Virus record (IMG/VR): IMGVR_UViG_3300031951_000204
Coordinates: 1-54,894 of that record
Source of the DNA: a virus
Length of the DNA: 54,894 nt
Strand: one strand, 5' to 3'
Shown in pieces: positions 25,441 through 44,757 of the stretch. Numbering within the stretch: the stretch's first letter is position 1; the number at the start of each line of letters is the position of its first letter. The position numbers were made by a program, and so were the translations under genes. The notes under the pieces are model-generated. The model was not told the DNA's origin. It did no database searches and saw only the letters and a program-made list of their open reading frames with translations.

Positions 25441-27195
25441 ATGGAAGGACTCGACACGATCTTGCGGGAGGCTACGCGCTGGGATGTTGCGGCGTGGTTT
25501 GAGGGGTTTGGGAAGATACGTCGGAAGGGTGGGGAGTTGGTGAGTCCGCGGGCGAACGTGTATCAGCATCGAATCAGCGAGGTGTTGCGTGAGGCGCATG
25601 AGCGGGGGAGGCCAGCGAGGCTGGTGTGTTTGAAACCGCGGCAGAAGGGCAGCTCGACATTCAGTGTTGCGGCGCTGTATCGGCGGATGATGGCGAAGCC
25701 GGGTGCTGGGTTGATTGCGGGTGGCGCGCATTTCCAAGGTGCGAACCTGTTCAAGATTCTCAAGACCTACACGGAGAATGACGGGTTGGATGGTGATGCG
25801 TGCAAGGTGATGGACACGTCGGCGCGGTTTCGGAATGGATCGAGCATTGAGCGGATCACGTTGGCGAACAGCAATGCGGGCCGGTCGGGGACGTTTCAGG
25901 CGATGGTGTTGACGGAGGTGGCGTATTTGTCGGAGGAAGGGGTTGCGAATGCGGACGAGGTGTTAAACGGGTTGGTGAAGTGTGTTCCGTATGAGCCGGA
26001 CACGTTCATTATTCAGGAGAGCACGGCGAAGGGTGCGAGCGGGAGCTTCTATGATCTATGGCGTGGAGGGATTGAGTTTGACGAGTTCATGGCCGGGAAG
26101 AACGGCTATGTGAAGGTGTTTGCGGCGTGGTATGAGTTTGAGGATTCGCGGTTGTTGCCGGATGGTGAGGGGATAGGCGGATGGGATGATTTGACGGATC
26201 AGGAGCGGAGGTTGGCGGAGAAGTGGAATTTGGACTTGGAGCAGGTTGCGTGGATGCGGTGGGCGATACGGGAGGAGTGCAAGGGGGACTTTGACAAGTT
26301 CTGTCAGGACTACCCGTTTGATCCGGAGACGGCGTTCCTAAAGTCGGGTCGTGGTCGGTTCAGCATTGAGGGGTTGGAGTATCAGGAGAAGCGGTCGCGT
26401 GAGTGCAAGCGTGAGCATGGGGCGTTGGAATACAACGAGCGTGCGGACTCGGTGCAATGGGTTCCGATGAATGAGGGAGAGGCGCGGAGTGTTCGGTGGG
26501 AGACGCCGCGTGTCGGTTGCCGGTATTTGGTTGCGGTTGACCCTATGACGGGAGCATCGCAGACGGGTGGTGATGATCCGGACTCGCATGGTGTGTTTGT
26601 GTTGCGGCAGGGTTATCTGGACCGTGGCGAGTGGGTTGAGCCTGCGGTTGTGATGCGCAACATGCTGGTTGCGGATGGTGTTCGGTTCGGGTGCTGGTGG
26701 GACATTGACGTGTTGGAGGAAGAGGTGTGGAGGATGGCGAGGTATTGGCAGGCCATCATTGTTCCGGAGATGAACATGGATCGAGGGTTGGTGGAGTTGT
26801 TGAAGTTGAGGGGGGACGTGGACATTTATCAGCGTGAGATTTTCAACCGGCGGGAAATGACGCGGACGAAGGCGTTGGGATGGGTGACGGACATCCGGAC
26901 GCGTCCGATGGTGATTGAGGGGTTGGCGCGTGCTGTTAGAGAGGCGGGGCGAGGTGGGTCGGGTGAGGGGATTGAGATACGCTGTCCGTGGGCGCTGGCG
27001 CAGATGCGGAATTTTGTTGTGAAGCCGAACGGGAAGGCTGAGGCGGGGCCGGGATGGCATGATGATGATGTGCTGGCGTTGGCGATTGGTGTTGCGACGT
27101 TGGAGATGGCGGTTCCGTGGCAGGAGCGTGAGCGGATGTATGGTGGGCGGAAGTTTTTGGTGGGTGGACGCAAGGCTGCGGGGCAATGGGATTGA
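25441..27195 (+). CDS. terL: Terminase large subunit
   Basis: 584 residues. Walker A is the variant KPRQKGSST (65-73) in RLVCLKPRQKGSST, and Walker B is in MVLTEVAYLSEEG. The C-terminal RNase H-like nuclease carries YLVAVDPMTG (Asp about 366) and HDDDVLALAI (about 540). It translocates DNA into the capsid and cuts concatemers. Codon use is unlike its neighbours: Val, Leu and Gly codons end mostly in G or T (gtg, ttg, ggt), while flanking genes favour C, which suggests separate ancestry. No Shine-Dalgarno is visible before ATG 25441. Confidence 0.92.
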   Translation: MEGLDTILREATRWDVAAWFEGFGKIRRKGGELVSPRANVYQHRISEVLREAHERGRPARLVCLKPRQKGSSTFSVAALYRRMMAKPGAGLIAGGAHFQGANLFKILKTYTENDGLDGDACKVMDTSARFRNGSSIERITLANSNAGRSGTFQAMVLTEVAYLSEEGVANADEVLNGLVKCVPYEPDTFIIQESTAKGASGSFYDLWRGGIEFDEFMAGKNGYVKVFAAWYEFEDSRLLPDGEGIGGWDDLTDQERRLAEKWNLDLEQVAWMRWAIREECKGDFDKFCQDYPFDPETAFLKSGRGRFSIEGLEYQEKRSRECKREHGALEYNERADSVQWVPMNEGEARSVRWETPRVGCRYLVAVDPMTGASQTGGDDPDSHGVFVLRQGYLDRGEWVEPAVVMRNMLVADGVRFGCWWDIDVLEEEVWRMARYWQAIIVPEMNMDRGLVELLKLRGDVDIYQREIFNRREMTRTKALGWVTDIRTRPMVIEGLARAVREAGRGGSGEGIEIRCPWALAQMRNFVVKPNGKAEAGPGWHDDDVLALAIGVATLEMAVPWQERERMYGGRKFLVGGRKAAGQWD

Positions 27196-27385: not shown

Positions 27386-27400
27386 TTGACAAAACGTGGG
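27386..27400 (+). promoter_or_regulatory. TTGACAAAACGTGGG motif (class A), 34 nt before ATG
   Basis: TTGACAAAACGT at 27386, with the downstream ATG at 27420. The preceding 190 bp (27196-27385) carries no convincing gene; only a 22-codon ORF near 27339 was noticed. Confidence 0.55.
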
Positions 27401-27419
27401 GGCCGTGAACAACGCGGGC

Positions 27420-28952
27420 ATGAGCGAGATCATTCCTGTGTTGGAGCTTGGAAAAGCGCGTGCGAAAGAAGCGTTTTTGGCTGGGAGCGGGAGGGTGATT
27501 AACCCGAGTCGGAATGCTGACACGAGGCAGGTCCGGTATCGGATGGGTCGCCACCGCGGGAAAACGCCGGATCAGGTTGACTCGGAGTTCGAGCGGTTGT
27601 GGGGGAGTGTGAATCCGAAGGTGCGGGAGAAGTATGCGAAGATGGCGGGTCCGCAGACGAGTTCCGGGTATGGTGCGAAGGTTGAGAAGCCGGAGATGAA
27701 GAAGGTTCCGCTTGCTCCGGTGCCGCGCCCCGAGGCGAAGCCAGATGCTGCAAAAGTTCCGACGTTTGATGATTTGACGAAGGTTGACCATTCGGCGCTG
27801 ACTCCTGACGGGATGCGTCATTCGATTGGCGATGGAGCGGCGAGCGCGCCGGTATCTTTGCCGAAGATGCCTGATGCCGTGACCGGCACGCCTGAAGAAT
27901 GGAAGGCATACAACGATCAAATGGCAAAGTTGAACCCGTCAACGCCGTTTCTCAAAACTCCAATGGGCAAGCTCGTCGCACCGATTGTTGACCCTGACAC
28001 GATCCACAACACTGATTCGGCTGGCAATCGGATCGACAAGCCGGGTTCGGTGAAGCCAACCGCGGCGACTCCGGTTGCGACGGTTGAAAAGCCGGGAGCA
28101 TTTGCGGGAGCGAAGCGCCGTGGGGGAGCTTCCCCAAGCGCGCAGCAAGGTCGGATTTCAAGCGGGGCGAGTCCGTCCGCGCCGCCCGCGGTTCGTGATG
28201 CGGCGGCTGACGTGGCGGACAAGCCGTGGCAGAATGTTGCGGGTCAGCCAGCGCAAACGCCTGTTCCGCGCCCGATGCCGGACCAAAAGACGTCATCGGT
28301 GACCCCGGCGGAGCGCGCCCGTCCAACAATGTCGGAGACTCCGGCGGGCATGGAGTTGGTCGGGATGAAGGGTGGAGTTCCGCAGTATGAGTCAATTGGC
28401 AGCGTGTATGGTGAAAGCCCGCGCAAGGCTGATGCGCCTCCGCTTGGAAATGTTGGTCCGGTGCGCGCTGAAAGGACGGCGAATGACATTCGGGCGGACT
28501 ATCAGAATCGGAACCAGACGCCTGCCAACCGCGCCGGAGCGGACAATGCGATGCGATCACAAGGCATGGTTATCCCTGCCACTCCGCAAACTCCGGTAAC
28601 ACGCGGCCCGGCCAGCCAGCCAGCCCCGGCCTACCAGTCGCCCACGGAAAAGGGAGGCGCGTTCAGCCGCGAGCGATACGCCAAGACCGCTGCGGCGCAG
28701 CAGGAGGGTTGGGACAAGAAAGCGATCCGTGATGGCACCGCAAGTCAGGCCACCAAAGATAAATGGTCTGACTACTCCAAAGAACGTGAGGCCGGTGTTG
28801 CGATGGACAAAGAGATCAACAAAGGCAAGCCCTACGGCGGAGCGGCCCCGGTTGTCGGTGGCGTAGGTAGCACTCCGAACAGCAAGGTTGTCGGGATTCG
28901 TCCCGGTTCTGCTTTTCCGATCCGCAAGCCGCGGTTTGCGATGGCTCGATGA
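27420..28952 (+). CDS. Pro/Ala-rich hypothetical virion protein
   Basis: 510 residues from ATG 27420, which has the class A spacing; a GTG at 27396 is the alternative. A short ordered N-terminus (SEIIPVLELGKARAKEAFLA, VRYRMGRHRGKTPDQVDSEF, ERLWGSVNPKVREKYAKMAG) is followed by about 350 residues of low complexity rich in Pro, Ala, Gly and Ser, with a more ordered tail (YAKTAAAQQEGWDKKAIRDG). Such intrinsically disordered proteins next to giant internal proteins may be ejected with the DNA. Function unknown. Confidence 0.55.
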   Translation: MSEIIPVLELGKARAKEAFLAGSGRVINPSRNADTRQVRYRMGRHRGKTPDQVDSEFERLWGSVNPKVREKYAKMAGPQTSSGYGAKVEKPEMKKVPLAPVPRPEAKPDAAKVPTFDDLTKVDHSALTPDGMRHSIGDGAASAPVSLPKMPDAVTGTPEEWKAYNDQMAKLNPSTPFLKTPMGKLVAPIVDPDTIHNTDSAGNRIDKPGSVKPTAATPVATVEKPGAFAGAKRRGGASPSAQQGRISSGASPSAPPAVRDAAADVADKPWQNVAGQPAQTPVPRPMPDQKTSSVTPAERARPTMSETPAGMELVGMKGGVPQYESIGSVYGESPRKADAPPLGNVGPVRAERTANDIRADYQNRNQTPANRAGADNAMRSQGMVIPATPQTPVTRGPASQPAPAYQSPTEKGGAFSRERYAKTAAAQQEGWDKKAIRDGTASQATKDKWSDYSKEREAGVAMDKEINKGKPYGGAAPVVGGVGSTPNSKVVGIRPGSAFPIRKPRFAMAR

Positions 28953-29028: not shown

Positions 29029-32000
29029 ATGGATGACAGCATGTTTCGCCAAAAGGGCGCGGGAGTCCCGCGTGGAAATGAATCGGTCGCGGAGGATGCC
29101 GTTCCGAGTGAACTCAGCGGGGGTGAGGTTCGTGTTCCGATATGGAAGTCGTTTGTTGGAAACAAGGATTTCCAAGAGCGGCAGGCTGGCGCGATAGCGG
29201 CGGAAAAGAGCCTGATGGCTTCCGCCGGGCGCGGCGGCGTGCGGTGGGGTGGTGACAACGGGCGGTTGTTTCGGAAGGCTGGCAGTTCGATTGAGGAATT
29301 TGACGCCGAGCAGTTGGCGGAAGACCCGGAAGCCGGGCCGTTTGCGCGCAAGAGCCTGTTTGACCGTGAGCGCCGGAGTGCGGCGGCGGAATATGATGGG
29401 TATGATTTGAAGCTCCAAGACCCGGCTTTCAAGGCGCGCGGTCTGACGGAAAAAGACCGTCAAGAGCGGCAGTTTGAGTTTGAGGCGTTGCCGGATACGG
29501 ACCCGCGCAAGGCGCAGGCCAAGGCGGCGATTGACGCGGACGACCAGTATCGCGCGGAGAAGGCGGAGATTGAGCAACGGAAGTATAACGCGAAAGTTCG
29601 CGCCACGCAGCTTGGCAACATTGACCCGGATACATGGTGGGCGAATCGCGCCACCATCGGGCAGGCACGCAAGCCCGCGCCGGTCGAGCAGGCGCAAGCG
29701 GCTCGTGGTGAGGCGAGGGCGGCGGATGATTCCGCGATGGGCCGGGAGAAAGAGCTTGATGCGGAGTTGATGAGCGGAGTGAGCGCCGCGCGGCTTGCGC
29801 AGATCAAAGCGGAGAAGGCGGAAATCGCACAAGCGCGCTCGCTGGCCGGTGAGCAGCAGGTTGAGGCGGACATGGCGGTTGATGGCGTCCGGCAGGAAGC
29901 GCAGGCCAAGGTTGACCAGTCTGTTGCGGAGCGTGGTTTTTGGGCTGACACCATTGCGGCGCTCAAGCGCGGCTATGCGGGTGCGGCGCAATCGGCAAAC
30001 ATCCTTCAGGGAGCAACTGACGCGGAGAACGCGCAAGATATTGCGGACTACGAGAAAATGAAGCAGGCCAACCCGGCTTCCACGGAGTTTCAGGAATTTC
30101 TCAATGCCAAGGGCTTTGCGGAGTCCGCCGCGGCATTCATCAAAAACCCCATCAGCATTGTTTCTGAGGTCATCGCGGAGAGCGCGGCGCAAATGGTTCC
30201 ATCCATCGCGCTTGGGTTTGCTGGCGGGTCGGCTGGCGGTGCGTTGGCGTCCGCTCCCACGGCTGGAACCGCGGCCCCGGCGACGGTCCCGATTGGCGCG
30301 GTGGTTGGCAGCGCCATTGGCGCGGGCACCGGCTCATATTTGGCGGAGTATGGCAACGCCATGCTTCAATCCATGCAGGAGGCAGGCATGGACGCGGCTG
30401 ACCCGAAGTCGATCCAAGCATTTTTCGGTGATGAGCAAAAACTTGCCGCCGCCAAGGAGTTTGCGGTGAAGCGCGGCATTCCGATTGCGATTTTTGACGC
30501 GGTTTCGATGGGCCTTGCCGGTAAGTTTATGAAGCCGGTCCAAGTTGCTGCCAAGGGCGGCGCGAAAGTGACGGCTGGGCAGGTTCTCAAGGCCAGCGGC
30601 AAGGAATTGGCCGCGCAGGCTGCGGCGGGTGCTGGCGGTGAGGCCGCGGCGCAGTTGGCGAGCACGGGCGAGATTTCAGAGGGCAAGGCCATCTTCTTGG
30701 AAGGCATTGCGGAAGTCGGATTTGCGCCGTTGGAAGTGGCGAGCAACTTGCGGGAGTTCGGCGGCGCTGCACCGGGCAGCAAGGAAGCGGATTTGATGGA
30801 GCAAACGACAACCGCGCTGACCGCGATTGACCCGGAAGCTGCCCCACCGACACCGCAGGAGATTGGGAATGCCGCTTTCATCACCGGACAGGGTGCCGGG
30901 GTTGAAGGACTGGCGGAAAGCGTGGTGATCGAGCGGGAGCTTGCCGGGATTGACGCGGAGGATACGGCGGCTGTTGCGGCAGCGGATCAAGCGGTTTTGG
31001 ATGCCAAGGCCACGGGTGACGCGGCGACGATCAAAGCGGCGGAGACGGCGCGTGAGTCGGTGATTGGAGGCCGCGCGCATCTTGTTCGCGCCGTGCTCAA
31101 GATAGCCTCCGGGCGGGACATTTCCACGCTGACGGACAACGAGCTTCGATCCATTGGCTACAAGGCGGACAAGGAAAAGCCGGGCGAGTATGTGGAGTTG
31201 GATGCGGATGAAGCCAAGGCGGCGGGCATCACAAAGCCGATGGTGCGCCGTGGCGCGGATGAGTCGGTTGTGATTACTGACGAGGCGCTGAAACGGGTCG
31301 AGGGCATTTTGCCGCGTGCTCGTGCCCGTGTGAAAATGGGCGAGACTGAGGCGCTGGACAAGGCGCAGCAACGCGCCAACACACCGGAATGGGAGGTGGA
31401 CACTTCCGCCGGGCCGGTGCGCGTGAAAGCCACGTCCCCGGAGGATGCGGAGCGCATTGCGGCGGAGACTTCTCCGCTTGGGCAGACGGTTCGCCCCGGC
31501 AGCGCCAAACAGGTTTCTCCGTCGCCCGGAAGTGATTCGGGCAATGCTCCGGGGGGGGCTTCGCCTGTGAACCCGGCGGCGGGGAATCAATCATCCAATG
31601 AAACAGGCCAGCCACAAACGCCGCCGGGAGCGGCCAATCAGCAAACGGGAAGCGCGGGAAATCCAGCGGGAGCTTCGGGAGGAACTGCGAGTAATGCAGG
31701 AGGCGCGCAAGGTGCCGCCGGGCAGGGAAATGCGGTTCCGGGGGCAGGAAAATGGTCAATCGTAGATTCTGACGGAAACTACAAATCGACGTATGACACG
31801 CAAAAGGATGCCGAAGCCGCCGCTGAGTATTTGAACGGCGCGGACAAATCGGGGAAAACTTATTCTGTTCGCCCTGCCACCGCGGAGGAATCCGGCGGAG
31901 CTTCATCAACAGGAGGAAAAGCCGCACCGGGCACCAAAGCTTTAGCCGCGGCTCGCAAGCGCATTGAGCAGATTAAGAGCAAGAACAAACGTCTCGCGGA

Positions 32001-35000
32001 TGCCATTATTGAGACACAAGACCCATCAATGTGGGCGATGATGTCCGAGGACGGGAAAAGCATTTACCTGAACGTCGAACGCATCATCAAGCGCGCCTTG
32101 GAGATTGGAATGAGCGAGGCGCAGGCCGCGCAATACTTCGCCCGCGTGCTCGATGAGGAAATCCGGCACATGGCGCACAATGATTCGGCGCGGAATCAGT
32201 ATGCCAAAATCGCCAAGGAAGCCGGTATTCACTTCGATGAAAAAGCCTTTGAAAACTGGCGCGAGCAGCATTACGGCGAAATCTGGCAAAACGATTTTGT
32301 TGCCCCCGGCAAGGACAAGATCATCCGTGACCTTTACTCGCGGGACACGACAAAGGGGAAAACCCACAACTTTGATTCCCTTCCAGCATGGAAGAAGGCG
32401 TTTGAGGGAATCCGCGCGTTGAGTCAGGGAGATAAAGTCACCGAAGGCAGCAAACTATGGACTAACATCAGAGACACGCTCCGGCAGGCGATTGAGGCCG
32501 CGCTTGCGGCACTCAAAGAGTTCATCGACATCGCCTCACCCACTCTCAAGACAGAAATTCAGAATCTCGAAAATGCACTCAAGCAACTCAATAAACCACG
32601 CGGAGGAACTTCAAAAGCTGGTGGCAAAAAGCCCGCTTCCGGCCAAGCGGGTGCTGGAACTGGCGGGGCGGCCCCACAAGGCGGCGATAGCAGCCCTGAC
32701 AGCAATGGCGGGACTCAGCCGCCACCAAGCGACGGCGCTGGTGCACCATTATCAGTCGGCGCGCGGGTGAGCTTTGTCTCGTCAAGCCCGGTGCTTGGCG
32801 ATATGGCCGGTCAGCGGATTGAGGGGACCATTGCCATCTTGCAGAACGGCATGGCGCGCGTGCGGCCTGATTTCGACCCGTCGATTTCGGTCGCGGTGCC
32901 GGTAGATGAGTTGACGGTGGAGCAGGCGGCAAAACCGCAGGCTAAACCTGCTTCCAACGAGGTTGGCCGCAACAAAAACGGCGATCAGATTTTCACCGAT
33001 GCGAACGGCGTGCGGTATCTTGAGGAAAACGGCTTCCGGATCAACCAGCCGGTTGACATGCGCCCGACGCGCGACGGTGTTGAATCCGTCCCGGTTTCGC
33101 CGCAGGAAATGTTCGACCGCGGCAATCTCCGGTTCCTGACCGAGACAGAGGTTGAGCAGATGCGCGCGGCCAAGGCGGCTGGCGGCAAGGATACCGAGTG
33201 GGAAGTTGCCAACATGGAACTTCTGTCGGAGGACCGCGCACGGATCAATGCGGCGCTGGTTGGGGATGAATCAGTGGTGAACGCGATTCGCAACAGCGAC
33301 CCGCAGAACGCGCGCATTCAGATCACAAGCCGGGTTCGCGCAATCCTCGCAAAATGGCTCAACGCCCGTGAGATTGATCCGAAGTCCTACACCTATTTCA
33401 GCCGCATGGCTGACAACCCGGTGTGGATTGATTCGGTGTTCAAGTCGGTCGGGAAAGAGATTTCCGCGGGCACTCCGCAACAAACACCAACCCCGCCAAC
33501 CAATGAAAAAGAAGGCCAAGGGCAAGGGCAAGCCGAAGGGCAAATGCTGACACCCCCGCCGTCCGGGGATAAATCCCCGGCGGCGCTCACCCCGGAAGAA
33601 GAACAGGCGAAGAAAGACCTGTTTGATGCTTTTGACGGTCTGGTAGATGGATTGGAAGCCGCCCCTCTGCCTGAACCGGAGTTCTACCGCGAGCGCCCGC
33701 CGACCGACCGCTTGCCGCAGATGCAGAAAGCGGCGCAATCGCTCATTTCCGCCGGGGTGGACACTCCCGGCAAGCTGGCCGAGTTCCTTGAGAAAGTCGC
33801 GCCGAACAAGCTCCGGCAGTTTTCGGAGTTCCTTTGGAGGCAGGTCAATTCCTTCCTCATGGGCGACACGGCGGCGGTGGATTGGAATGAAATCTACAAC
33901 GCATCAACGAATCAGGATGCGACAATCAAAGTAGGCGATTGGGTCCGATTCAAGGATCGTCCGGATGAAGGTCCGTGGACGGTTTGGAGCAAGGACGGCG
34001 ACCGTGTGAAGCTGGACAACAGCACGCGCAACCTTTCGTTCAACATCGACAACTTTGAGAAAGTCGATCCGCCGCAGGGGCAGGAGGAAGATGCCGATTT
34101 GAGAGATTCGATTCTTGGCCCTCCCATGGACGCGCCCGCCGAAGTGGTGCTTGATCGTCTCAAAAAACGCCTTCTCAAGCATGCCGAAGGCGGAAACATG
34201 GACCCGCACCAAATTGCCGGAACATGGTTTGAGATATTCTGGAATTTCAACGGTGATGGATACGCCACAATCCAAGGCCGAGGTCACAAGGTTTCCGCGA
34301 AAATATCCGATATTTTAAAGGGCAAAATTGGGGTTCAAGATTCAACGAATGAAGAATCCGCGCCGGAACCCGCCGCCGCCTATCGCCTTGCCTCCCAGCT
34401 TGCCGAGCGGATCAAACGCAAGGAAAAGACCAGCATTCAGGAACTCACCCGCATGGCGAGTGAGGTTTATGGAGGCAGGACCGGCGAAGGCTTCGACATC
34501 AAGACCGCTTATGACTCGGTGGAAATGGCAATCAACATCCTGATTGGAGAATCAGGCATGGAGGTCAACGTGACGCCGGAGCAGGCACGCCAGAACCTCG
34601 AAACCATCCGTGGCTGGCTAGAATACATCCCGACGCAGACGCGCCGCACGGGCGAAATGGATGCGATGCAACAATTTTCCACGCCACCCCATTTTTCCTA
34701 CATCGCTTCATGGGTGGCGGCGGTTGGCAACAAGGACGTTGGATTTGAGCCGTCCGCCGGGCTTGGCGGGCTGGCCGCGTGGATGGCCCGCGCCGGGGCT
34801 GACGTTCGCCTCAACGAACTGAGTCCGCGCCGCCGTGAAATGCTCGACCAGATGCACATTGGCCCGCCCGCCACCGGGCATGATGCCGGAGTGCTTCACT
34901 CCCTGCTTTTGCCAGCGATCAACAACGGCAGTATGCCGCAGCCGACGATTGTGGTGATGAATCCGCCGTTTTCCAACAACGCGGCGGGCCGGAAAGACTT

Positions 35001-38000
35001 GCTGACCGGCGCGAAGCACATTGACGAAGCTCTCAAGCTCCTGCCTCCCGGCGGGCGCTTGGTTGCCATCGTGGGCGAGGGCATGGCGCTGGAAGCTCCG
35101 AAATACAAGCCGTGGTGGGATCGCATCCGCCGCGATTACAACGTCCGCGCCAACATCCATGTCGATGGCCGCGAATACGCCAAGTATGGCACGACCTTTT
35201 CCAACCGGATTCTCGTCATTGACAAGGTGCCCCCGACCGGCGAAAGTATCGTCGGAGGCGAGGTCACACGAATCGAGGATTTGATTCCACTTCTCGACCC
35301 GGTAAGAACAACCCGCCCGACTCCAAATGAAAACGCTGCAATACCCGGAAATCCATCGCCACCCAATCAACAAGGCGGCATCGCTCCGACTCCGCAAGGA
35401 GGGAATGGACCGCGCGGCACCCCAAGAACTCCCGGTTCTCGCACTGGCTCGGGAAGTGCTGGTCAAGGAGGATCAGGAGGACTCGGAAGCGGCAATAGCA
35501 CTAACTCTGGTGGACAGGTCAATGGAGGAAGCAACGCAACTGATAGCGGAAGCGATAACACCGGAACAAATCCTGACGGACAACCTTCAGGACGTGGCGG
35601 ACAGGATTCTAGCGGAACTGCTGCCAAGCTAGACACCGAGGTTGAGCGCGACGAGGCATCGGCTGAGCGCAATGTGGATGAAAACGAGGTTTTCACCGAT
35701 TACACGCCGACGAAGTTCCGGCTGAAAGGATCACAGCCGCACCCGACCACGCTGGTTGAGAGTTCGGCCATGGCAACGACCGAGTTGCCAGCATCCACGG
35801 TCACGCTCAATCTTCCAAAGGAAGTCGTGACATCCGGCGAGCTTTCCGACGCGCAGCTTGAGGCCATTGCCTATGCGGTGCAGGCGCATGAGTCCGTGTT
35901 TGAAAACGGAGAGCGGCAGGGCTTTTTCATCGGTGATGGAACCGGCGTCGGCAAAGGCCGTGAAATTGCCGGGACCATCCTTCACAACTGGCGCGAAGGA
36001 CGGCGCAAGGCTGTTTGGATCACAGAGAAAAAGGATTTGGTGAAAGATGCACGGCGCGACTTTGACGGCATCGGAGGCAAGGATGTTTCTGTGTATGACA
36101 TGGCAAAAAACGTCCCAGCGCCACAAGGCGATGCGGTTGCGTTTTTGACGTATGACGGGTTGAAAGGAAATTTTGACGGCTTGACGCCAGATGGCGGAAT
36201 CCGGAAATCTGACGCCAAAAAACCCGCTCGCATCCAAAACCTTCTCAACTGGCTTGGCGCGGATTTTGATGGGTTGATCGCTTTGGACGAAGTTCATAAC
36301 GCGGGGAACGCGCTGGCGATCAGAGGCAGTCGTGGAACCAAGCAACCGTCACAAAAGGCCATTGCCGTAGTTGAGTTGCAAAAGGTGTTCCCGAAAGCTC
36401 GTTTCCTTTATGTTTCAGCCACCGGAGCGACCGAACCGAACAATCTGGCGTTTGCCTCGCGTCTTGGCATGTGGGGGCCGGGCAAGGCGTTCCGTGATGC
36501 CGTCAACTTCTACAATCAGATCAAATCCGCAGGCATTTCCGCCATGGAGATTGTCGCCCGCGACTTGAAAGCGATGGGTCTTTACGTTGCCCGCACGCTT
36601 TCCTTCAAAGGGCAGGATGGCGGCGAGTCGGTCACATTCACACGGCTTGAGCACAGCCTGACGCCAGATCAGGAAACCATTTACGGGAAAGCAGCGGAAG
36701 CATGGCAAACGATTTTCGCCAACATCGACCGCGCGCTTGCTGTGACAGGAGCAGCAAATAGCTCAAGGGCAAGAAACGCCGCCGCGTCCGCGTTTTGGGG
36801 ATCGCAGCAACGGTTTTTCAACGGCTTGCTTACCGCAATGCAGATGCCTTCCGCGATTGCGGACATGAAGCAGAAGCTGGACGAAGGCGGGTCAATCGTA
36901 ATCCAGTTGATAAATACCAACGAGGAAGCGTTGAACCGTGCAATCGCCCGCGCGCTTGCTGAAAATCCAACCAACCCGGATTACGAGAATGTGGACCTTT
37001 CCTCACGTCAGGACATTCTTGAGTTCATCCATAGCTCCTACCCTGTGAACCAATACGTTGAAGTTCCTAACGGAGTTGATTCGCAGGGGAATCCAAAAAC
37101 TCAATGGGTTCTTCTCACAGATGAAGAGGGCAACGCAATTCCCAACCCGCAGGCTGTTGCCATGCGCGATGCCTTGCTTGATGAAATGGCAAGGCTCCCA
37201 TTGCCCGATCCTCCGCTTGAGCAAATCATCAGGACGTTCGGCGCGGAAGCGGTTGCTGAAATCACCGGTAGGGACAGAAGGCTTATTGAAAAAACGGACG
37301 ACCGAGGAAGCACCCGGAGAGTGGTTGAAAGACGCAACGATTCAAAACGCGAAAAAGAGAAAAACGATTTCCTCGACGGCAAGCGCCGTATCCTCATGTT
37401 TTCGGACAAAGGCGGAACCGGATTCTCCTATCACGCTGGGGCGAACTTCAAGAACCAGCAGAAACGCTATCAATACGTCGTGCAGGCTGGTTGGCGTGCG
37501 GACAAGGCAATTCAAGGGCTTGGCCGGACCCACCGCGCCGATCAGGTCAAGACTCCGGCATTCATCCTTGTTTCCACCAACGTCAGCGGGCACAAACGGT
37601 TCATTTCCACCATCGCGCGGCGCTTGCAACAGCTTGGCGCGCTGACCTCCGGCGAGCGCAAGACCACCGGGCAGGGCTTGTTTGATGACAGCGACAACAT
37701 CGAGGATGCTTATGGTGACAGCGCCGTGACGAGGTTTTTCTTTGACCTGTTCCGCGGCGAGATTCCGGGGCTTGGATTTGACGACATCACAAGGAAACTT
37801 GGATTCCAAAAAACAACAATTGACCCGATAACTGGAGAAGAAGTCACAATCAACAAGCTCTTGGATGATGCGGGATTGCTGAATACAAGCAAGATTCCGG
37901 AACTTAGCCAGTTCCTAAACCGCATCCTCGCGCTGCCGATCCAAGAACAAAACTCGGTGTTCGACGCCTTCATGGAGCGCCGCGAGGTCTTTATCCGGGC

Positions 38001-41000
38001 GGCGAAAGAGTCCGGAAGCTATGACGCCGGGGTTGAAACCTTCAACGCGGACGAGCCGGAAGTCGTGGCGGATGAAGCGGTGTATCAAGACCCCAACTCG
38101 TCAGCGGCGACACGGCTGGTTGAAATCAAGTTCAAGCGGTTCTTCTCCTACAACGATTTCGATTTTGTCACCAGCCTTGCCAAGAATCCGAAATACGTCG
38201 TTTCCCGCGACGGAAAGCGTGTCTATGCGCTGGGTCAAACGGACTTGAACGTGACCATGGATGATGGTCGGGTGCTTCCCGGCTTCAAGCGGTTCACTCT
38301 CAAAAACGTCTCCATCGAGCCAAAGGAAAACTACACGACCGGCCCTCGCCCCGGAAAGGCCAAGGTTGGCGACCAGTTCACCCACAATGGCACGCAATGG
38401 GAGTTGATCGAAATTGACAGCGAGAACGGCAAAGCCCGGATTCGGGAGGTTGGCGTGGACCGGGAGAAACAGGCAATGCCGACCGGCGAGCTTCGTTCCC
38501 TCTACGAGCAAACCGGCAACGTGGTTGATGGCGTGAATGAGAACTCCCACTACGTTCCGGACTATTTCGAGTTGGATCAGGCCGAGGCGCAATCCGAGTG
38601 GAATCGCCTGCTTGCCGCCGAACCGAAGTTTGAGGAAAAGAACGCCACCTTCATTGTCGGATCGACGCTGCCAATCTGGCACCGCATCCCGTTTGCCAAC
38701 AAGCAGGTCAAGCGGGTGAAGATGGATGACGGAAGCTCGTTCCTTGGAATGCTCGTGCCGGAGGACAAGGTGGACGACACCCGCGCCCAACTCGGTGCTT
38801 CCGCATCGGAAGTCACCCCGGCCAAGGCCCGCGCCGCCATCATCGAGCGCGGCGCGCGTGTGGAACTCTCAAACGGCTGGGTGATGAAACGCACCAATTC
38901 GGCTGGCGAGCAACGGATTGAGGTTGTCGGCGTGGATCACACGCAATGGGGAACCGGCACGGAACCGGCGTGGAACCGCTACGGCTACATCGAGCGGATC
39001 AACTTTGCCCCGCGCTACTTCCTCCGCACCGACCTCGACTCAATCGACAAGCTCTTGCGCTACGCGCCAGCGGTGCAGATTGTTGAAGGCCTCCAAGCCG
39101 CCGAACTCCCCGCCCTCCGCGCCGACTCGCCGGAGTGGAAGTCGATGAGCAAGGCACAGCGCGCGGAGTACCTTAAAAAAAAAGGCGGTTTGGAAGCCGC
39201 CCCACTCCCTGAAACCGACGCCAACATCGGGCGTCTCCGCAGCAAGATTCAAGGCGGGATGAACAAGCCGCTTCTTGATGAAGCTCGCCGCCAGCAGGCC
39301 GCGTTTGGCAACATCAGCACGCCGCGCCTTGCCAATCCGGGCAACACCGAGCGGAGCCGGGCGGAACAGGACATTGTGGATGCGCTCTATGAGCACGAGC
39401 GGCAGGTTCGCAAGGACCGCGACGTATTTGCCGAAGCGCGCCGCCGCGTGAACGACGACCCCAAGGGGGTTGAGGAAAAGCTGTTGCAGATTGCCGAGGG
39501 CAAGACGTTCGCCACCGACGACGCGGATCACGTCGCGTTTGCCATGCTCATCAACCAGCGCGCCGCCGAGGCGGGCAACGACTTGACGAAACATGAAGCC
39601 AACATGGCGCTACGCATGGCCTACCGTGCAATGCGCGCCGACACCGCCCGCGAGCTTCGCATCGGCTACGACAAGTTTATGAAGCCGGAGGAACGGGCGC
39701 GGAAGGCGATTGCCGACGCGATTTACACCCCGACGCTGGCGATTGAGAAACGCGCGGCGCAGTTGAATTTCAGCCCGGAGAAGCAACGGGAATACATCCG
39801 GCAGGCCGCGAGCGAGCGGTTGCAGACCATCGAGAAGGCGCTGAAAAAAATGGGCGTCACGCTGGACGAGATTCTTTCCGGCCAAGCGTTCCTCAGCCTG
39901 TCGCAAAACGCCATTCTCAAGCAGGCGCTCGCCGTGCGGACGGCGGAAGAGCGGATGGTGGTCAAGATGCTGCAAGCCAAGACGCCGCTTGAGCGCATCA
40001 AGAAAAAGACCGGGTTCACCGAGGAACGCATCGAGGGAATCCGCGCGATGCTCTACGAGGAACTGCTTGAAAAGGCCAAGGAGAAGGTCCGCGCGGGCAT
40101 GAAGCTGGAAAACTTCAAGGATGCGATGAAAGGGCTGCAAGCCGCCCCACTTCCGGGCGCAGGGCTGACCGAAGAGCAGATTGAGGCGGAAGCGCGCCGG
40201 ATCGTGGAAATCGGGTTTGGCATCCCGCGCGAGACGCCAAAGGCATCCGTCGCCAAGCCGAAGCGGATCAAGCCCAAGGCTGACACCGACCCGCATCAAG
40301 CCGACTGGACCCGCCCCGTGTTCACGGATGGTCTGAATGACTACGATTTCGACACCAAGGACCGGGCGGAGATTATGAAGCGGGTGGAGGCCATCCGTGG
40401 CATCGCCAGCGCCACCGGCAAGATCAACACGCTCACCGGCAAGAAGAAGGCGCAGGCGGAGGCGCTTTTGAAGGAGATTGACGCCATCCTTGCCAAGTAT
40501 GGCACCGACTCGGAGAAAATCTTTGAGGCTGCAAAGCCGGTGGAGGAATACGCTTTCAACATCCACGACCGGGCGCACGTCGCCGCCATCGCCCGCGCGA
40601 TCCAAGCGATTGACGCCGACATCGTGGACAAGGGACTTGAGTGGGTTTATTCATCCATCCTTTCCGGCATCCAGACGATGACGGTGAACGCCACCGCGGC
40701 AATCCCGGCGGCATGGGATATGACTGTGGGCCGCGGCTTTGAAATGGCGGTCAACGCCCTGTTCCGCGACAAATCTTCCTCCACGCCGAACGAGGTCAAA
40801 TACATCCTCAAGGCCGCGCGCCCGGCGCTCGCCCGCGCCATGTCCAACGCATCCGCCACATGGGGCAGCGAGCTTCCCATGTTCGATGAGGATTTCTTGG
40901 GCAAGGCCGCGGACCTCGACAAGCTGTTTGACGGCCACGCGCCGAAGATTGGCGTGATTGGCGGCACCAAGGGCCGGATCATCCGCGTGCCGCTCCGCAT

Positions 41001-42540
41001 CCTGCTTGCGACCGACGAGTTCAACCGCACGGCAATCGCGGTGGCGGAAGTGGGAGCGATGGCCTACCGGGTGGCGCAGGCGCAAGGACTCAAACCCGGA
41101 ACGCCGGAGTTCGACAAGTTTCTCGCCAAGGAGGTCAACACAGCGGGCAGCTACTCCGCCAAGCTCGCCGCGGAAAAAGCCAGCAAGCTGATTTTCACCA
41201 ACCCGCTGCCGGGGCAAACCAATCCCATCACGGACGAGCGCGCTCCCATCGAGGGGATTGGCGACGTGGTTGGCGCGGGCGCGGCTTTGCTCAACTCGCT
41301 TGTCACCACCAAGACCGACAACCTGTTTGCCAAGGCGTTGCTCGCCATTCTCCGCGTGAGCTTCTTCCCGTTCCAGCGCACGCCGTTCAACCTGATTCGC
41401 CGCGGCGTCCGCCACACGCTCAATCCCATCAGTTTGATCGACATTGCGGTGTTGATGACAAAGAACTCAATCACCGTTGATACCAACGGCAAAATCCGGT
41501 GGAAGTGGAATGCGCGTGGCCGCAACCCGGAAATCGTGGTTCGCCTCGCGCAGCAACTCCAAGGCGCGACTCTGCTTGCCGCCCTGATGTCGATGGCTGC
41601 CGGGGAGGGCGACGAGGACGATCAGGACAAGCCCATCCTCATCACCGGAAGCCAGCCGTTCACCCTGAAAGGCATGGCCGAGCGGGAAGCGCAAATGCGC
41701 TCAGGCCTTGGCCCCTACCGCATTTCCTTCCGCCGCAAGGATGGGTCCGAGCGGTTCGGATTCAACTATGGCAGGCTTGAGCCGCTCGCCACCACGCTTG
41801 GCACCACGATTGACTCCCTCAAGGCATACAAGCGCACGAATCGCGCCGGGGCTGATGGCGCGGGAGTTGCCTCTTCCGTCCTTGGCGGACTGGTGGCGCA
41901 GGCGCAGGACAAGACCTATCTGCAAGGATTTGCCGACTTGTTCAGTCTCGTCAACAACGCGCTCGAAAGCGATGAGAGTCTGAAAGACAACCGGAAGTTC
42001 CAGCAGTTCATGGCAAGCCGCGTGGCGATGGCGTTCCCGAACATCATCAAGCAACCGATCCGCGAGACCGACCCCATGTATCGCGCCCGCGCGGAGGACT
42101 TCATGCAGGAGCTTCTTTATCAGGCCGCGCCCTACGGCCAGAAGGAAGCCAAGGCCGATCCATACGGACGCTTGGCGGAAAAGACCGGCAATCCGGTGGG
42201 CCGCGTGTTTGACGTGACGGACGCGGGAACCGACCCGGTAAATCCCTACGACAAAGCGCTTCTCCGCTGGCGCGACTCCGGCCAAGGCAAGCCGTGGTTC
42301 CCCGCTCCGATTGTCAACGGCAGCTTCAAGAACAACCGCACCGGCAAGGAGCAGGACATGACGCAGGATCAGCTTGCCGAGTTCCGCAACATCGCCGGAA
42401 AGCGCGTCACCGCCATGCTCAAGCGCGAGGCCATCAACCTTGAAAGCCCGACCATCATCGACATCGAAAAAATCAAAGACGCTCATTCCAAAGCTCGCTC
42501 CGAGGCCAAGAAGATGATCGCCTACAAACATTCACGCTAA
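29029..42540 (+). CDS. Giant polyvalent protein: DNA methylase, SNF2/strawberry-notch helicase, internal virion domain
   Basis: 4503 residues in one frame. In order: a charged helical start; a Gly/Ala-rich hydrophobic segment (about 385-445); a disordered linker (828-905); an acidic helix with DEEIRHMAHND (about 1040); further linker and SH3-like modules (SVGARVSFV at 1245, KVGDWVRF at 1631); an N6-type methylase (about 1870-2070) with FEPSAGLGG and NPPF at 1978; a linker (2098-2200); an SNF2-type helicase (2250-2860) with GDGTGVGKG at 2302, DEVH at 2420 and QGLGRTHRADQ near 2830; and a C-terminus (3785-4503) with hydrophobic blocks like internal virion proteins. The methylase plus strawberry-notch helicase pair matches DarB-type anti-restriction proteins. 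GL[EQ]AAPLP occurs at 1541, 3387 and 3702. Confidence 0.8.
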   Translation: MDDSMFRQKGAGVPRGNESVAEDAVPSELSGGEVRVPIWKSFVGNKDFQERQAGAIAAEKSLMASAGRGGVRWGGDNGRLFRKAGSSIEEFDAEQLAEDPEAGPFARKSLFDRERRSAAAEYDGYDLKLQDPAFKARGLTEKDRQERQFEFEALPDTDPRKAQAKAAIDADDQYRAEKAEIEQRKYNAKVRATQLGNIDPDTWWANRATIGQARKPAPVEQAQAARGEARAADDSAMGREKELDAELMSGVSAARLAQIKAEKAEIAQARSLAGEQQVEADMAVDGVRQEAQAKVDQSVAERGFWADTIAALKRGYAGAAQSANILQGATDAENAQDIADYEKMKQANPASTEFQEFLNAKGFAESAAAFIKNPISIVSEVIAESAAQMVPSIALGFAGGSAGGALASAPTAGTAAPATVPIGAVVGSAIGAGTGSYLAEYGNAMLQSMQEAGMDAADPKSIQAFFGDEQKLAAAKEFAVKRGIPIAIFDAVSMGLAGKFMKPVQVAAKGGAKVTAGQVLKASGKELAAQAAAGAGGEAAAQLASTGEISEGKAIFLEGIAEVGFAPLEVASNLREFGGAAPGSKEADLMEQTTTALTAIDPEAAPPTPQEIGNAAFITGQGAGVEGLAESVVIERELAGIDAEDTAAVAAADQAVLDAKATGDAATIKAAETARESVIGGRAHLVRAVLKIASGRDISTLTDNELRSIGYKADKEKPGEYVELDADEAKAAGITKPMVRRGADESVVITDEALKRVEGILPRARARVKMGETEALDKAQQRANTPEWEVDTSAGPVRVKATSPEDAERIAAETSPLGQTVRPGSAKQVSPSPGSDSGNAPGGASPVNPAAGNQSSNETGQPQTPPGAANQQTGSAGNPAGASGGTASNAGGAQGAAGQGNAVPGAGKWSIVDSDGNYKSTYDTQKDAEAAAEYLNGADKSGKTYSVRPATAEESGGASSTGGKAAPGTKALAAARKRIEQIKSKNKRLADAIIETQDPSMWAMMSEDGKSIYLNVERIIKRALEIGMSEAQAAQYFARVLDEEIRHMAHNDSARNQYAKIAKEAGIHFDEKAFENWREQHYGEIWQNDFVAPGKDKIIRDLYSRDTTKGKTHNFDSLPAWKKAFEGIRALSQGDKVTEGSKLWTNIRDTLRQAIEAALAALKEFIDIASPTLKTEIQNLENALKQLNKPRGGTSKAGGKKPASGQAGAGTGGAAPQGGDSSPDSNGGTQPPPSDGAGAPLSVGARVSFVSSSPVLGDMAGQRIEGTIAILQNGMARVRPDFDPSISVAVPVDELTVEQAAKPQAKPASNEVGRNKNGDQIFTDANGVRYLEENGFRINQPVDMRPTRDGVESVPVSPQEMFDRGNLRFLTETEVEQMRAAKAAGGKDTEWEVANMELLSEDRARINAALVGDESVVNAIRNSDPQNARIQITSRVRAILAKWLNAREIDPKSYTYFSRMADNPVWIDSVFKSVGKEISAGTPQQTPTPPTNEKEGQGQGQAEGQMLTPPPSGDKSPAALTPEEEQAKKDLFDAFDGLVDGLEAAPLPEPEFYRERPPTDRLPQMQKAAQSLISAGVDTPGKLAEFLEKVAPNKLRQFSEFLWRQVNSFLMGDTAAVDWNEIYNASTNQDATIKVGDWVRFKDRPDEGPWTVWSKDGDRVKLDNSTRNLSFNIDNFEKVDPPQGQEEDADLRDSILGPPMDAPAEVVLDRLKKRLLKHAEGGNMDPHQIAGTWFEIFWNFNGDGYATIQGRGHKVSAKISDILKGKIGVQDSTNEESAPEPAAAYRLASQLAERIKRKEKTSIQELTRMASEVYGGRTGEGFDIKTAYDSVEMAINILIGESGMEVNVTPEQARQNLETIRGWLEYIPTQTRRTGEMDAMQQFSTPPHFSYIASWVAAVGNKDVGFEPSAGLGGLAAWMARAGADVRLNELSPRRREMLDQMHIGPPATGHDAGVLHSLLLPAINNGSMPQPTIVVMNPPFSNNAAGRKDLLTGAKHIDEALKLLPPGGRLVAIVGEGMALEAPKYKPWWDRIRRDYNVRANIHVDGREYAKYGTTFSNRILVIDKVPPTGESIVGGEVTRIEDLIPLLDPVRTTRPTPNENAAIPGNPSPPNQQGGIAPTPQGGNGPRGTPRTPGSRTGSGSAGQGGSGGLGSGNSTNSGGQVNGGSNATDSGSDNTGTNPDGQPSGRGGQDSSGTAAKLDTEVERDEASAERNVDENEVFTDYTPTKFRLKGSQPHPTTLVESSAMATTELPASTVTLNLPKEVVTSGELSDAQLEAIAYAVQAHESVFENGERQGFFIGDGTGVGKGREIAGTILHNWREGRRKAVWITEKKDLVKDARRDFDGIGGKDVSVYDMAKNVPAPQGDAVAFLTYDGLKGNFDGLTPDGGIRKSDAKKPARIQNLLNWLGADFDGLIALDEVHNAGNALAIRGSRGTKQPSQKAIAVVELQKVFPKARFLYVSATGATEPNNLAFASRLGMWGPGKAFRDAVNFYNQIKSAGISAMEIVARDLKAMGLYVARTLSFKGQDGGESVTFTRLEHSLTPDQETIYGKAAEAWQTIFANIDRALAVTGAANSSRARNAAASAFWGSQQRFFNGLLTAMQMPSAIADMKQKLDEGGSIVIQLINTNEEALNRAIARALAENPTNPDYENVDLSSRQDILEFIHSSYPVNQYVEVPNGVDSQGNPKTQWVLLTDEEGNAIPNPQAVAMRDALLDEMARLPLPDPPLEQIIRTFGAEAVAEITGRDRRLIEKTDDRGSTRRVVERRNDSKREKEKNDFLDGKRRILMFSDKGGTGFSYHAGANFKNQQKRYQYVVQAGWRADKAIQGLGRTHRADQVKTPAFILVSTNVSGHKRFISTIARRLQQLGALTSGERKTTGQGLFDDSDNIEDAYGDSAVTRFFFDLFRGEIPGLGFDDITRKLGFQKTTIDPITGEEVTINKLLDDAGLLNTSKIPELSQFLNRILALPIQEQNSVFDAFMERREVFIRAAKESGSYDAGVETFNADEPEVVADEAVYQDPNSSAATRLVEIKFKRFFSYNDFDFVTSLAKNPKYVVSRDGKRVYALGQTDLNVTMDDGRVLPGFKRFTLKNVSIEPKENYTTGPRPGKAKVGDQFTHNGTQWELIEIDSENGKARIREVGVDREKQAMPTGELRSLYEQTGNVVDGVNENSHYVPDYFELDQAEAQSEWNRLLAAEPKFEEKNATFIVGSTLPIWHRIPFANKQVKRVKMDDGSSFLGMLVPEDKVDDTRAQLGASASEVTPAKARAAIIERGARVELSNGWVMKRTNSAGEQRIEVVGVDHTQWGTGTEPAWNRYGYIERINFAPRYFLRTDLDSIDKLLRYAPAVQIVEGLQAAELPALRADSPEWKSMSKAQRAEYLKKKGGLEAAPLPETDANIGRLRSKIQGGMNKPLLDEARRQQAAFGNISTPRLANPGNTERSRAEQDIVDALYEHERQVRKDRDVFAEARRRVNDDPKGVEEKLLQIAEGKTFATDDADHVAFAMLINQRAAEAGNDLTKHEANMALRMAYRAMRADTARELRIGYDKFMKPEERARKAIADAIYTPTLAIEKRAAQLNFSPEKQREYIRQAASERLQTIEKALKKMGVTLDEILSGQAFLSLSQNAILKQALAVRTAEERMVVKMLQAKTPLERIKKKTGFTEERIEGIRAMLYEELLEKAKEKVRAGMKLENFKDAMKGLQAAPLPGAGLTEEQIEAEARRIVEIGFGIPRETPKASVAKPKRIKPKADTDPHQADWTRPVFTDGLNDYDFDTKDRAEIMKRVEAIRGIASATGKINTLTGKKKAQAEALLKEIDAILAKYGTDSEKIFEAAKPVEEYAFNIHDRAHVAAIARAIQAIDADIVDKGLEWVYSSILSGIQTMTVNATAAIPAAWDMTVGRGFEMAVNALFRDKSSSTPNEVKYILKAARPALARAMSNASATWGSELPMFDEDFLGKAADLDKLFDGHAPKIGVIGGTKGRIIRVPLRILLATDEFNRTAIAVAEVGAMAYRVAQAQGLKPGTPEFDKFLAKEVNTAGSYSAKLAAEKASKLIFTNPLPGQTNPITDERAPIEGIGDVVGAGAALLNSLVTTKTDNLFAKALLAILRVSFFPFQRTPFNLIRRGVRHTLNPISLIDIAVLMTKNSITVDTNGKIRWKWNARGRNPEIVVRLAQQLQGATLLAALMSMAAGEGDEDDQDKPILITGSQPFTLKGMAEREAQMRSGLGPYRISFRRKDGSERFGFNYGRLEPLATTLGTTIDSLKAYKRTNRAGADGAGVASSVLGGLVAQAQDKTYLQGFADLFSLVNNALESDESLKDNRKFQQFMASRVAMAFPNIIKQPIRETDPMYRARAEDFMQELLYQAAPYGQKEAKADPYGRLAEKTGNPVGRVFDVTDAGTDPVNPYDKALLRWRDSGQGKPWFPAPIVNGSFKNNRTGKEQDMTQDQLAEFRNIAGKRVTAMLKREAINLESPTIIDIEKIKDAHSKARSEAKKMIAYKHSR

Positions 42541-42561: not shown

Positions 42562-44757
42562 ATGATCCAAGAACAAGTTGAGAGAATCATCGAACCGAAG
42601 GAAGGCGAGCAGCCGATACAGGACGACGGGCTTACCCCGTTGATGCCGTTTCCCACCTCCTACCTTCTCAACCGCGATCAGGAGGACGAGCTTGTGACCC
42701 ACGCCATGCGGCGGCTGGAACAGCTTGAGCGGGAAACCGGGCGCGACGTGTGCGAAGGCGAGTGGTGGGGCAAGGATGCCCAAAACATCGAGATTCGTGA
42801 CATGGAAGGCGTGGGCGGCGTGGAACAGACATGGATGGGCAAGCGCCACCTGTATGACCTCACCTACAAGAACGACGTTTCATGGCGCAGCCGTTTGCTT
42901 GGCGGAATTTTCGCCACGAGCAACCTCGTGGTGCCAGCCGTGCGCCGCGTGTGCCGCCAGATGATCGCCCGCGCGGTGAATTACTTTTTCGGGACCGATC
43001 CATGGTTTGCCATCTACCCGGTCGGGGCGCTCGACCGCGACCGCGCGGACAAGGCTGACCGCTACATCCGGTGGAAGATGGATCAGGCCAAGCTCAAGCG
43101 GAGCGAGGAACAGGGGATTGAGCGGGCGTTCATCATCGGTGAGGCCGTGGTGAAAACCTCATGGGCGAACCGGGCGCAGATTTACAAGACCCGCGCCCGC
43201 GTGCTCGTGGATGAAGTTGGCGCGGACATCCTTGGCGCGGATGGCGATTACATTCTTGAAGATGACCCATGGATTGCCGAGGCAATGGAAGACCCGGCCA
43301 CCGGGGAAATGGTCCCGTCCGGCCAGATTGTCCTCAAGCGTGACGGCGCGACCCCGCAGCCGGAGCCGATGATTTTCACGGAAAAGGTAATCACCCGCCG
43401 CATCACCCACTACAAAGGCCCGGAGGCGAAGGTGATTCACTTCATGGATTTCCTTTGCCCGCTTGAAGCGGAAAGCATCCAGCAGGCGGATTGCGTGGTG
43501 CATCTTTACGACATGCCGCTGATGGACTTGGCGGACCAGTGGAAGAAGAGCATCGACGCGGGCGCAAGCGCGGAAGTGAAAGCGGAGTCAACCCGCCGCG
43601 CCATCGACTTGATTCGCACGCTTGCATCTTCCTCCGGCCAGCCAAAAAGCGCGCAGAACTCTGACAATGTGGATGAAACCACCGGCAACGGATCGCGCGA
43701 CGAGCAGGTTCAGCCGGTCGTTGAAATCGCGGAGTTCCATCTCCGCTACGATTGCGACGGCGACGGCATCCTTGAGGATGTGATGCTCGTGGTGGACCGC
43801 CGCAGCCGTACGCCAATCTTCTACGATTACGAGGCCAATATCACCGCGGACGGCTTGCGTCCGTTCTCGGTGATCCGCGTGAACGAGGTTCCGGGCCGCT
43901 GGTATGGCATCGGTGCCATGGAAATGTTCAACACTTCCCAGCAGATTCTTGACCTCCTTATCAACCGTTGGAACTTCGCCAACTCGAAAGCCGCGCGCGT
44001 GGACTTCTGGAATCCGCACAACACGCTTGAGGGCCGCGCCAACCCGCACCTTGAGTTGAATTGGGGTGGCACCTACACCCCGGCCCCCGGCAAGACCGCC
44101 AAGGACTGCTTGGAAACCGTCTATCTGGAAAACAACACCGCCGACCAGATTCAGGAACTTGCTGAGTTCTTCATGCAGATGATGATGAATGAATCCGGAG
44201 TGATGAACGGCAACGACGGACAAACCGCCGGGCTGGAATCATCCAAACTCGCCACCGGAATCCGCAACATCGAGAAAAGCGGGCAGGAACTTTTCAGCCT
44301 CTACCTTGGACACCTTGAGCCGGGCGTGAGTGAGACGCTGACAAAGATGGTCAAGATGATGATGAGCCGCCTCGATGGCATGGAGGTCTATCGCTATTTC
44401 GAGGAAGGCGAGGGCGGCGAGGGCATGGGTGAGTTCCGCGAAATCAACCCCGGCGACATTTCCAACATGGAACTGGATACCCGTATCCTGCTTACCCGCT
44501 ACCGCGGCGAGCAGATTCTTGAATCCTCCATCCGCGCATGGGAGATTGTGGAGAAATACTATGCCCAGCCGAGCATTGACGTGCAGATGCGGACGCAAAA
44601 TATGGCAATCGACATCCTCAAGGCGCTGCAAGTTCCGAACGCGGACAAGGTGATCGAGCCGCTGCCGCTCCAAGCAATGCCCACCGGCCCGGTTGACGCC
44701 ACCGGAACCGCGCAAGCCGTCGCTCCGAAACCACGTCAATCCACCCCCAACCTATGA
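42562..44757 (+). CDS. Portal protein
   Basis: 731 residues. The N-terminal clip and wing are seen in RRLEQLERETGRDVCEGEWW and SRLLGGIFATSNLVVPAVRR. Later come HLYDMPLMDLADQWKKSIDA and the stem/crown region LDLLINRWNFANSKAARVDF, with QIQELAEFFMQMMMNESGVM and SSKLATGIRNIEKSGQELFS characteristic of podovirus/P22-like portals. As the ring through which DNA enters, it interacts with terminase and scaffold. The stop overlaps the next gene by ATGA. The larger size fits this class. Confidence 0.85.
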   Translation: MIQEQVERIIEPKEGEQPIQDDGLTPLMPFPTSYLLNRDQEDELVTHAMRRLEQLERETGRDVCEGEWWGKDAQNIEIRDMEGVGGVEQTWMGKRHLYDLTYKNDVSWRSRLLGGIFATSNLVVPAVRRVCRQMIARAVNYFFGTDPWFAIYPVGALDRDRADKADRYIRWKMDQAKLKRSEEQGIERAFIIGEAVVKTSWANRAQIYKTRARVLVDEVGADILGADGDYILEDDPWIAEAMEDPATGEMVPSGQIVLKRDGATPQPEPMIFTEKVITRRITHYKGPEAKVIHFMDFLCPLEAESIQQADCVVHLYDMPLMDLADQWKKSIDAGASAEVKAESTRRAIDLIRTLASSSGQPKSAQNSDNVDETTGNGSRDEQVQPVVEIAEFHLRYDCDGDGILEDVMLVVDRRSRTPIFYDYEANITADGLRPFSVIRVNEVPGRWYGIGAMEMFNTSQQILDLLINRWNFANSKAARVDFWNPHNTLEGRANPHLELNWGGTYTPAPGKTAKDCLETVYLENNTADQIQELAEFFMQMMMNESGVMNGNDGQTAGLESSKLATGIRNIEKSGQELFSLYLGHLEPGVSETLTKMVKMMMSRLDGMEVYRYFEEGEGGEGMGEFREINPGDISNMELDTRILLTRYRGEQILESSIRAWEIVEKYYAQPSIDVQMRTQNMAIDILKALQVPNADKVIEPLPLQAMPTGPVDATGTAQAVAPKPRQSTPNL

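Follow-up and report, generated by a model that had tools for sequence, protein, structure and literature searches.

A 4,503-residue protein joining a predicted adenine methylase to a Strawberry-notch helicase, encoded beside the portal gene of an uncultured podovirus-like phage

The joining of a methylase to a helicase within one polyvalent protein has been described as the methylase-helicase dyad, of which the Strawberry-notch helicase is the less common form (Iyer et al., 2017; PMC5512222). As read by these authors, the ATPase translocates on double-stranded DNA while the methylase modifies that DNA in cis, and restriction is thereby countered (PMC5512222). Among phage proteins of this general type, P1 DarB is ejected with the DNA and has been tied to protection against EcoB and EcoK (PMC12810830); for the DarB-like gp69 of phage JC1 (4515 aa), mass spectrometry of virions purified on CsCl gave 51 unique peptides (PMC9144972). 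On the plasmid side, TraC1 combines an ArdC-like N-terminal part with a Toprim C-terminal part, and the RP4 protein passes into recipient cells; ArdC itself acts against HsdRMS (PMC7213743). The giant protein treated here is of a kind already known and named, the methylase-helicase dyad polyvalent proteins; what is new is the delimitation of its conserved core, including an extension at residues 3178-3353, the addition of a member whose lineage has no cultured relatives, and the finding that this core also stands downstream of IncP-like transfer genes.

A giant gene between terminase and portal genes

The window, by which we mean the whole stretch of DNA analyzed (IMG/VR virus record IMGVR_UViG_3300031951_000204, 54,894 bases), carries no end repeats. 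On its plus strand, positions 29029-42540 form one open reading frame that begins with ATG, contains no internal stop and encodes 4503 residues, exactly where an earlier note made from the sequence had placed it; the motif positions given there (NPPF at residue 1978, GDGTGVGKG at 2302 and DEVH at 2420) are likewise correct, and QGLGRTHRADQ, also named there, lies at 2829. The longest stop-free run on the plus strand in 50 base shuffles of the window spans 313 codons, and the coding periodicity of codon-position GC extends throughout the frame. Because a second IMG/VR contig is 100% identical to the window over 24 kb, including the giant gene, an assembly artefact is unlikely. Third-position GC shifts along the gene, from approximately 0.64-0.69 over residues 1-2000, to 0.59-0.63 over residues 2001-3000, to 0.75-0.82 over residues 3001-4500, with the low blocks lying inside the conserved core described below; these shifts are compatible with, but no proof of, a mosaic origin.

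The surrounding genes are those of a head and packaging module. Upstream lie the terminase large subunit gene (25441-27195, plus strand) and, immediately before the giant gene, a gene for a 518-aa Pro/Ala-rich protein that has no family match (27396-28952, plus strand). Downstream, the portal gene of SU10 type (42562-44757, plus strand; SU10_portal, E 6e-28) starts 21 bases past the giant gene's stop codon, in agreement with the position just before the portal reported earlier, and is followed by genes for a probable major capsid protein (47656-49155, plus strand; phrog_334, E 4e-6), a gp80-type head protein and an SU10-type adaptor protein (50468-51448, plus strand; E 1.5e-6). A tblastn search of the window's portal and capsid against 50,697 phage records returned no match, and its terminase matches phage records at ~25% identity. 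Given the terminase upstream, the portal, capsid and adaptor genes downstream, and the lack of a portal or capsid match in these records, we assign the giant gene to the head/packaging operon of an uncultured podovirus-like lineage.

Several observations were made in passing. A gene annotated as a tail spike in Bacteroides phage BS-TP4 (L003 20340-22436, PQ571277.1) aligns over 96% of the window terminase (E 8e-15) and, judging from this similarity, is probably a terminase gene. Outside the giant gene, the minus strand of the window encodes a separate Dam-type DNA adenine methyltransferase (10724-11350; PF05869, E 5e-14) and a DUF2303 protein (4967-5791; E 6e-46); a DUF2303 protein, gp10, has been detected in phage JC1 virions (PMC9144972). 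On the plus strand, positions 9069-10199 weakly match a phage integrase central domain, at an E value of 0.006 that is below the cut-off, and from this match the phage may be temperate.

Methylase, motor and flanking regions compared with described systems

In single-sequence searches of the giant protein the methylase signal is weak; a profile built from 41 sequences matches HsdM of EcoR124 and EcoKI. The domain, predicted to be an HsdM-like gamma-class adenine-N6 methylase, covers residues 1870-2095 (34636-35313, plus strand) and is preceded by a four-helix cap at residues 1783-1864 (34375-34620, plus strand), which occupies the place that Iyer et al. assign to LPD36. An AlphaFold2 model (pLDDT 91, pTM 0.90) shows this cap together with a Rossmann methylase, and most of the top PDB matches to it are type I HsdM subunits. 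The STP, SAG, NE and NPPF motifs are invariant or nearly so among the 41 relatives; the motifs of the gamma class appear as FSTPPH at residue 1883 and NPPF at residue 1978, with S, T, N, P, P and F all invariant. In the modeled cap, helices 2 and 3 are linked by a conserved Gly-rich turn, GGRTGEG, and the exact LPD36 string GXG[GAS] is absent from that turn.

The motor follows. Its first domain, AAA_34, spans residues 2237-2553 (35737-36687, plus strand) with Walker A at 2302 and DEVH at 2420, and matches Pfam at E 2e-100 (336 bits against a curated cut-off of 27); the second, Helicase_C_4 of Strawberry-notch type, spans residues 2729-3004 (37213-38040, plus strand; E 5e-79, 266 bits against a cut-off of 30.5). 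The motor retains all of its motifs, and Walker A and B residues are invariant in 29 sequences. A model of 1166 residues (pLDDT 80, pTM 0.71) matches Chd1, Rad54, RapA and the Sulfolobus SNF2 core, all of which are double-stranded DNA translocases, and comparison with viral models returned one viral protein, aligned at 29% identity over nearly the full length. Plain sequence searches against solved structures yielded no match for the whole chain or for the helicase profile. By its family matches and predicted structure, the helicase is a Strawberry-notch SWI2/SNF2 ATPase, and that the giant protein joins a methylase to an SNF2 motor is close to certain. Both enzymatic assignments of the earlier note, an N6-type methylase and an SNF2-type helicase, are therefore borne out, the latter being refined to the Strawberry-notch type, and the structure predictions by which that note proposed to judge them disagree with neither fold.

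Two marks of polyvalent proteins are present here: at least two distinct catalytic domains (methylase and SWI2/SNF2 ATPase in one 4503-aa chain) and a packaging or late gene neighborhood (terminase upstream, SU10 portal downstream). It is very likely that the giant protein belongs to this DarB-like, polyvalent kind. Like the Strawberry-notch dyad proteins of Iyer et al. (2017; PMC5512222; for example, Methylomonas WP_020485828.1), it has an HsdM/TaqI-type adenine methylase with a four-helix N-terminal cap, a Strawberry-notch SWI2/SNF2 ATPase behind it, and a phage packaging neighborhood. It differs from them in that no Pfam polyvalent domain (LPD38, LPD39, ART, MPTase or ArdC-N) was detected and that its N-terminal 1780 and C-terminal 1100 residues lack an assigned domain.

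The parallel to DarB-type proteins drawn in the earlier note holds firmly for one half of the pair and loosely for the other. P1 DarB (2255 aa) also carries its methylase on the N-terminal side with an SNF2-class motor behind, and its gene likewise adjoins the portal gene; the two methylases are homologous (hhalign probability 94, E 1e-7), whereas the motors are only weakly related, over the C-terminal motor half (probability 48, E 2e-4). DarB further departs from the giant protein in being half the size, in having NVPF for NPPF, in placing the methylase near its N-terminus rather than mid-chain, and in the orientation of its gene, which points away from the portal gene, whereas the giant gene and its portal gene run the same way. 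The Bcep22-like giants (JC1 gp69, and BcepIL02 gp70 of 4667 aa) resemble our protein in size, podophage setting and methylase homology (hhalign probability 84), and virion presence has been shown for JC1; their motor, however, is HepA-type as annotated in JC1 (PMC9144972), BcepIL02 gp70 does not match the Strawberry-notch profile A3, and the gene sits at the far end of the morphogenesis module rather than before the portal. In gp3 of Bacteroides phage BS-TP4 (5391 aa), too, methylase and Strawberry-notch helicase are encoded directly upstream of the portal; identity is ~27-31% only, LPD38 is present and the rest of the chain cannot be aligned.

Outside the catalytic domains, an Ala/Gly-rich N-terminal region (residues 319-501; 29983-30531, plus strand) is 27% identical (E 6e-11) to part of a 3125-aa giant protein of Limnohabitans phage DC33. 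This phage (L006, PQ492659.1) is filed under Inoviridae, but the tail-type and giant proteins encoded in its 39-kb genome are those expected of a tailed phage, and the label looks wrong. The hydrophobic segment noted earlier falls in this region, at residues ~384-445, and does not hold up as a membrane segment: it is Ala/Gly-rich, and no 19-residue window reaches a Kyte-Doolittle value of 1.4. We likewise rejected zincin self-processing, given that DEEIRH (residues 1042-1047; 32152-32169, plus strand) is at most a degenerate zincin motif lacking the first zinc-binding His of HExxH, a motif found in many phage and plasmid relatives; the giant chain itself contains no HExxH protease that might cleave it.

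The octapeptide GL[EQ]AAPLP occurs three times, at residues 1541-1548 (33649-33672), 3387-3394 (39187-39210) and 3702-3709 (40132-40155), all on the plus strand; the first two copies flank the conserved core, the second lying just past it. None of 300 block shuffles contained three copies. A protease site common to virion proteins was considered and set aside, as a six-frame search of the window shows no further copy of the octapeptide and the relatives have none, save for loosely similar APLP strings in loci L010 and L015. The C-terminal region (residues 4081-4497; 41269-42519, plus strand) had been called internal-virion-like, a description for which we find no direct sequence support: the region matches no named family or recognized virion domain, and is shared only with the C-termini of the closest relatives, L015 (E 8e-7) and L018 (E 3e-4). 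Nor could LPD38 be placed there, by Pfam or by an hhalign link to LPD38-bearing relatives.

The conserved core in phages and conjugative plasmids

With the core as query, we recovered 31 viral loci and 28 genome loci. Residues ~1780-3353, which include the extension at 3178-3353 (38560-39087, plus strand) seen in phage and plasmid copies alike, are the only widely conserved part of the giant protein, being found at more than 50 loci; outside them the relatives' N- and C-termini differ, with a few sub-families in common. Many relatives are giants themselves (3,000-5,900 aa), and among them occur the polyvalent-protein domains LPD38, LPD39, ART-PolyVal, InPase, LPD1 and ddrB-ParB. In Bacteroidota phages and in L015, too, the portal gene lies directly downstream of the giant gene. 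For the gene upstream of the L016 giant, a tape-measure or lytic transglycosylase identity was not adopted, since it has PHROG matches only and no Pfam match.

The same core is common on plasmids. The methylase matches 622 plasmid records (327 predicted to be conjugative) and the helicase 597 (309 predicted to be conjugative), and the closest of these, nearer than any phage in the annotated collection, are methanotroph plasmids, whose core is 42-45% identical. In these IncP-like giants, such as MEALZ_RS20390 of Methylotuvimicrobium alcaliphilum (2547 aa), the core is N-terminal rather than mid-chain, ArdC-N, a zincin metallopeptidase, DUF5710 and a Toprim region follow it, and the gene stands in a transfer operon. 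On plasmid MEALZ_p (MOBP, MPF_T) the order is traJ-traI-traG-traF-topoisomerase III-small ORFs-giant, and at ten bacterial genome loci the giant lies just downstream of an IncP-like traJ-traI-traG-traF run, a place that we take to be the traC slot of the RP4 Tra1 operon. The portal-adjacent position in phages and the traC-like slot in plasmids independently indicate a protein that enters the new cell with DNA. Stand-alone plasmid copies also exist; one, on an Azospirillum plasmid (L069 4816-10027), is flanked by a type I-E CRISPR cluster and a gene for a phosphorothioated-DNA-binding restriction endonuclease, a setting that suggests host-side use of the methylase-Strawberry-notch pair.

A tree built from 54 helicase cores puts the window in a group with L018 and L015 (97/83) and unites the methanotroph plasmid copies with the phage giants L044, L051 and L050 (98/97). 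Because forcing all the Pseudomonadota phage-type copies into one clade gives p = 0.06, phage-plasmid exchange is suggested and no more. On these sequence comparisons, we judge the chances to be even that the methylase-Strawberry-notch core, with its extension, is a portable "entry cassette" exchanged between virion-packaged giants of phages and the transferred primase/ArdC-type protein of IncP-like plasmids.

A proposed role at DNA entry

We favor, with moderate confidence, the view that the giant protein is a DarB-like polyvalent protein that enters the host with the phage DNA and shields it from restriction. The protein would be packaged in the head and would exit via the portal along with the DNA; in the new host, its motor would track along the double-stranded phage DNA while the methylase would mark adenines in cis, or the complex would occupy sites; either way, type I and similar restriction enzymes would be unable to cut the incoming genome. 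The parts of this proposal differ in strength. Packaging and ejection, which the earlier note had also suggested, are likely by analogy, given the portal adjacency, the plasmid context of the cassette and the detection of JC1 gp69 in virions. That protection from restriction is the protein's main job seems somewhat more probable than the alternatives combined, and protection by methylation and protection by occlusion are about equally plausible. The helicase shows only weak kinship with the DarB motor and no detectable kinship with its counterpart in the Bcep22-like giant, so the transfer of function from those proteins depends chiefly on the methylase and on overall architecture.

Other readings put the motor or the mark to different use. 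The T7 genome is pulled into the cell by transcription, and the motor might chiefly be an engine of DNA entry that, following the initial ejection, takes hold close to the envelope and reels in the genome, with the methylase secondary or serving site choice. An SNF2-fold translocase encoded beside the portal, with an Ala/Gly-rich segment in common with another podophage giant protein, would suit such an engine; we nevertheless regard it as unlikely, because the protein has no true transmembrane segment, the same cassette occurs in conjugative plasmids, which enter single-stranded via a type IV secretion system, and the methylase's catalytic motifs are kept as strictly as those of the motor. 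Somewhat less probable still is that marking of the incoming DNA by the dyad serves some end other than escape from restriction, whether the timing of replication or transcription or the evasion of methylation-sensing BREX or DISARM: an adenine methylase that looks active in sequence and model, and the fusion of conjugative plasmid copies to a Toprim primase-like region, are in keeping with this idea, but among DarB-type and ArdC-type proteins, those studied in most depth have type I restriction as their target (PMC12810830, PMC7213743).

The protein might, finally, not be packaged at all, and instead be made late in the cell to modify progeny DNA or exclude rival phages. Stand-alone plasmid copies and the SNF2-methylase pairs known from restriction and defence systems (PMC5512222) would accord with this reading, to which we give a low probability, since the gene lies between terminase and portal in a structural operon and DarB-like giants of other podophages have been found in virions (PMC9144972).

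Under the preferred reading, of a packaged protein that shields entering DNA, a phage lineage without cultured relatives devotes a quarter of its sequenced contig to the giant protein's function. The core at residues ~1780-3353 is a compact unit that can be cloned and assayed, where earlier work faced DarB within a six-protein system of P1 or chains of four to six thousand residues, and the plasmid copies in culturable methanotrophs make protection of entering DNA by the cassette, and the respective roles of motor and methylase, directly testable. If the cassette is indeed exchanged between phages and plasmids, one DNA-protection machine would serve two unrelated routes of entry.
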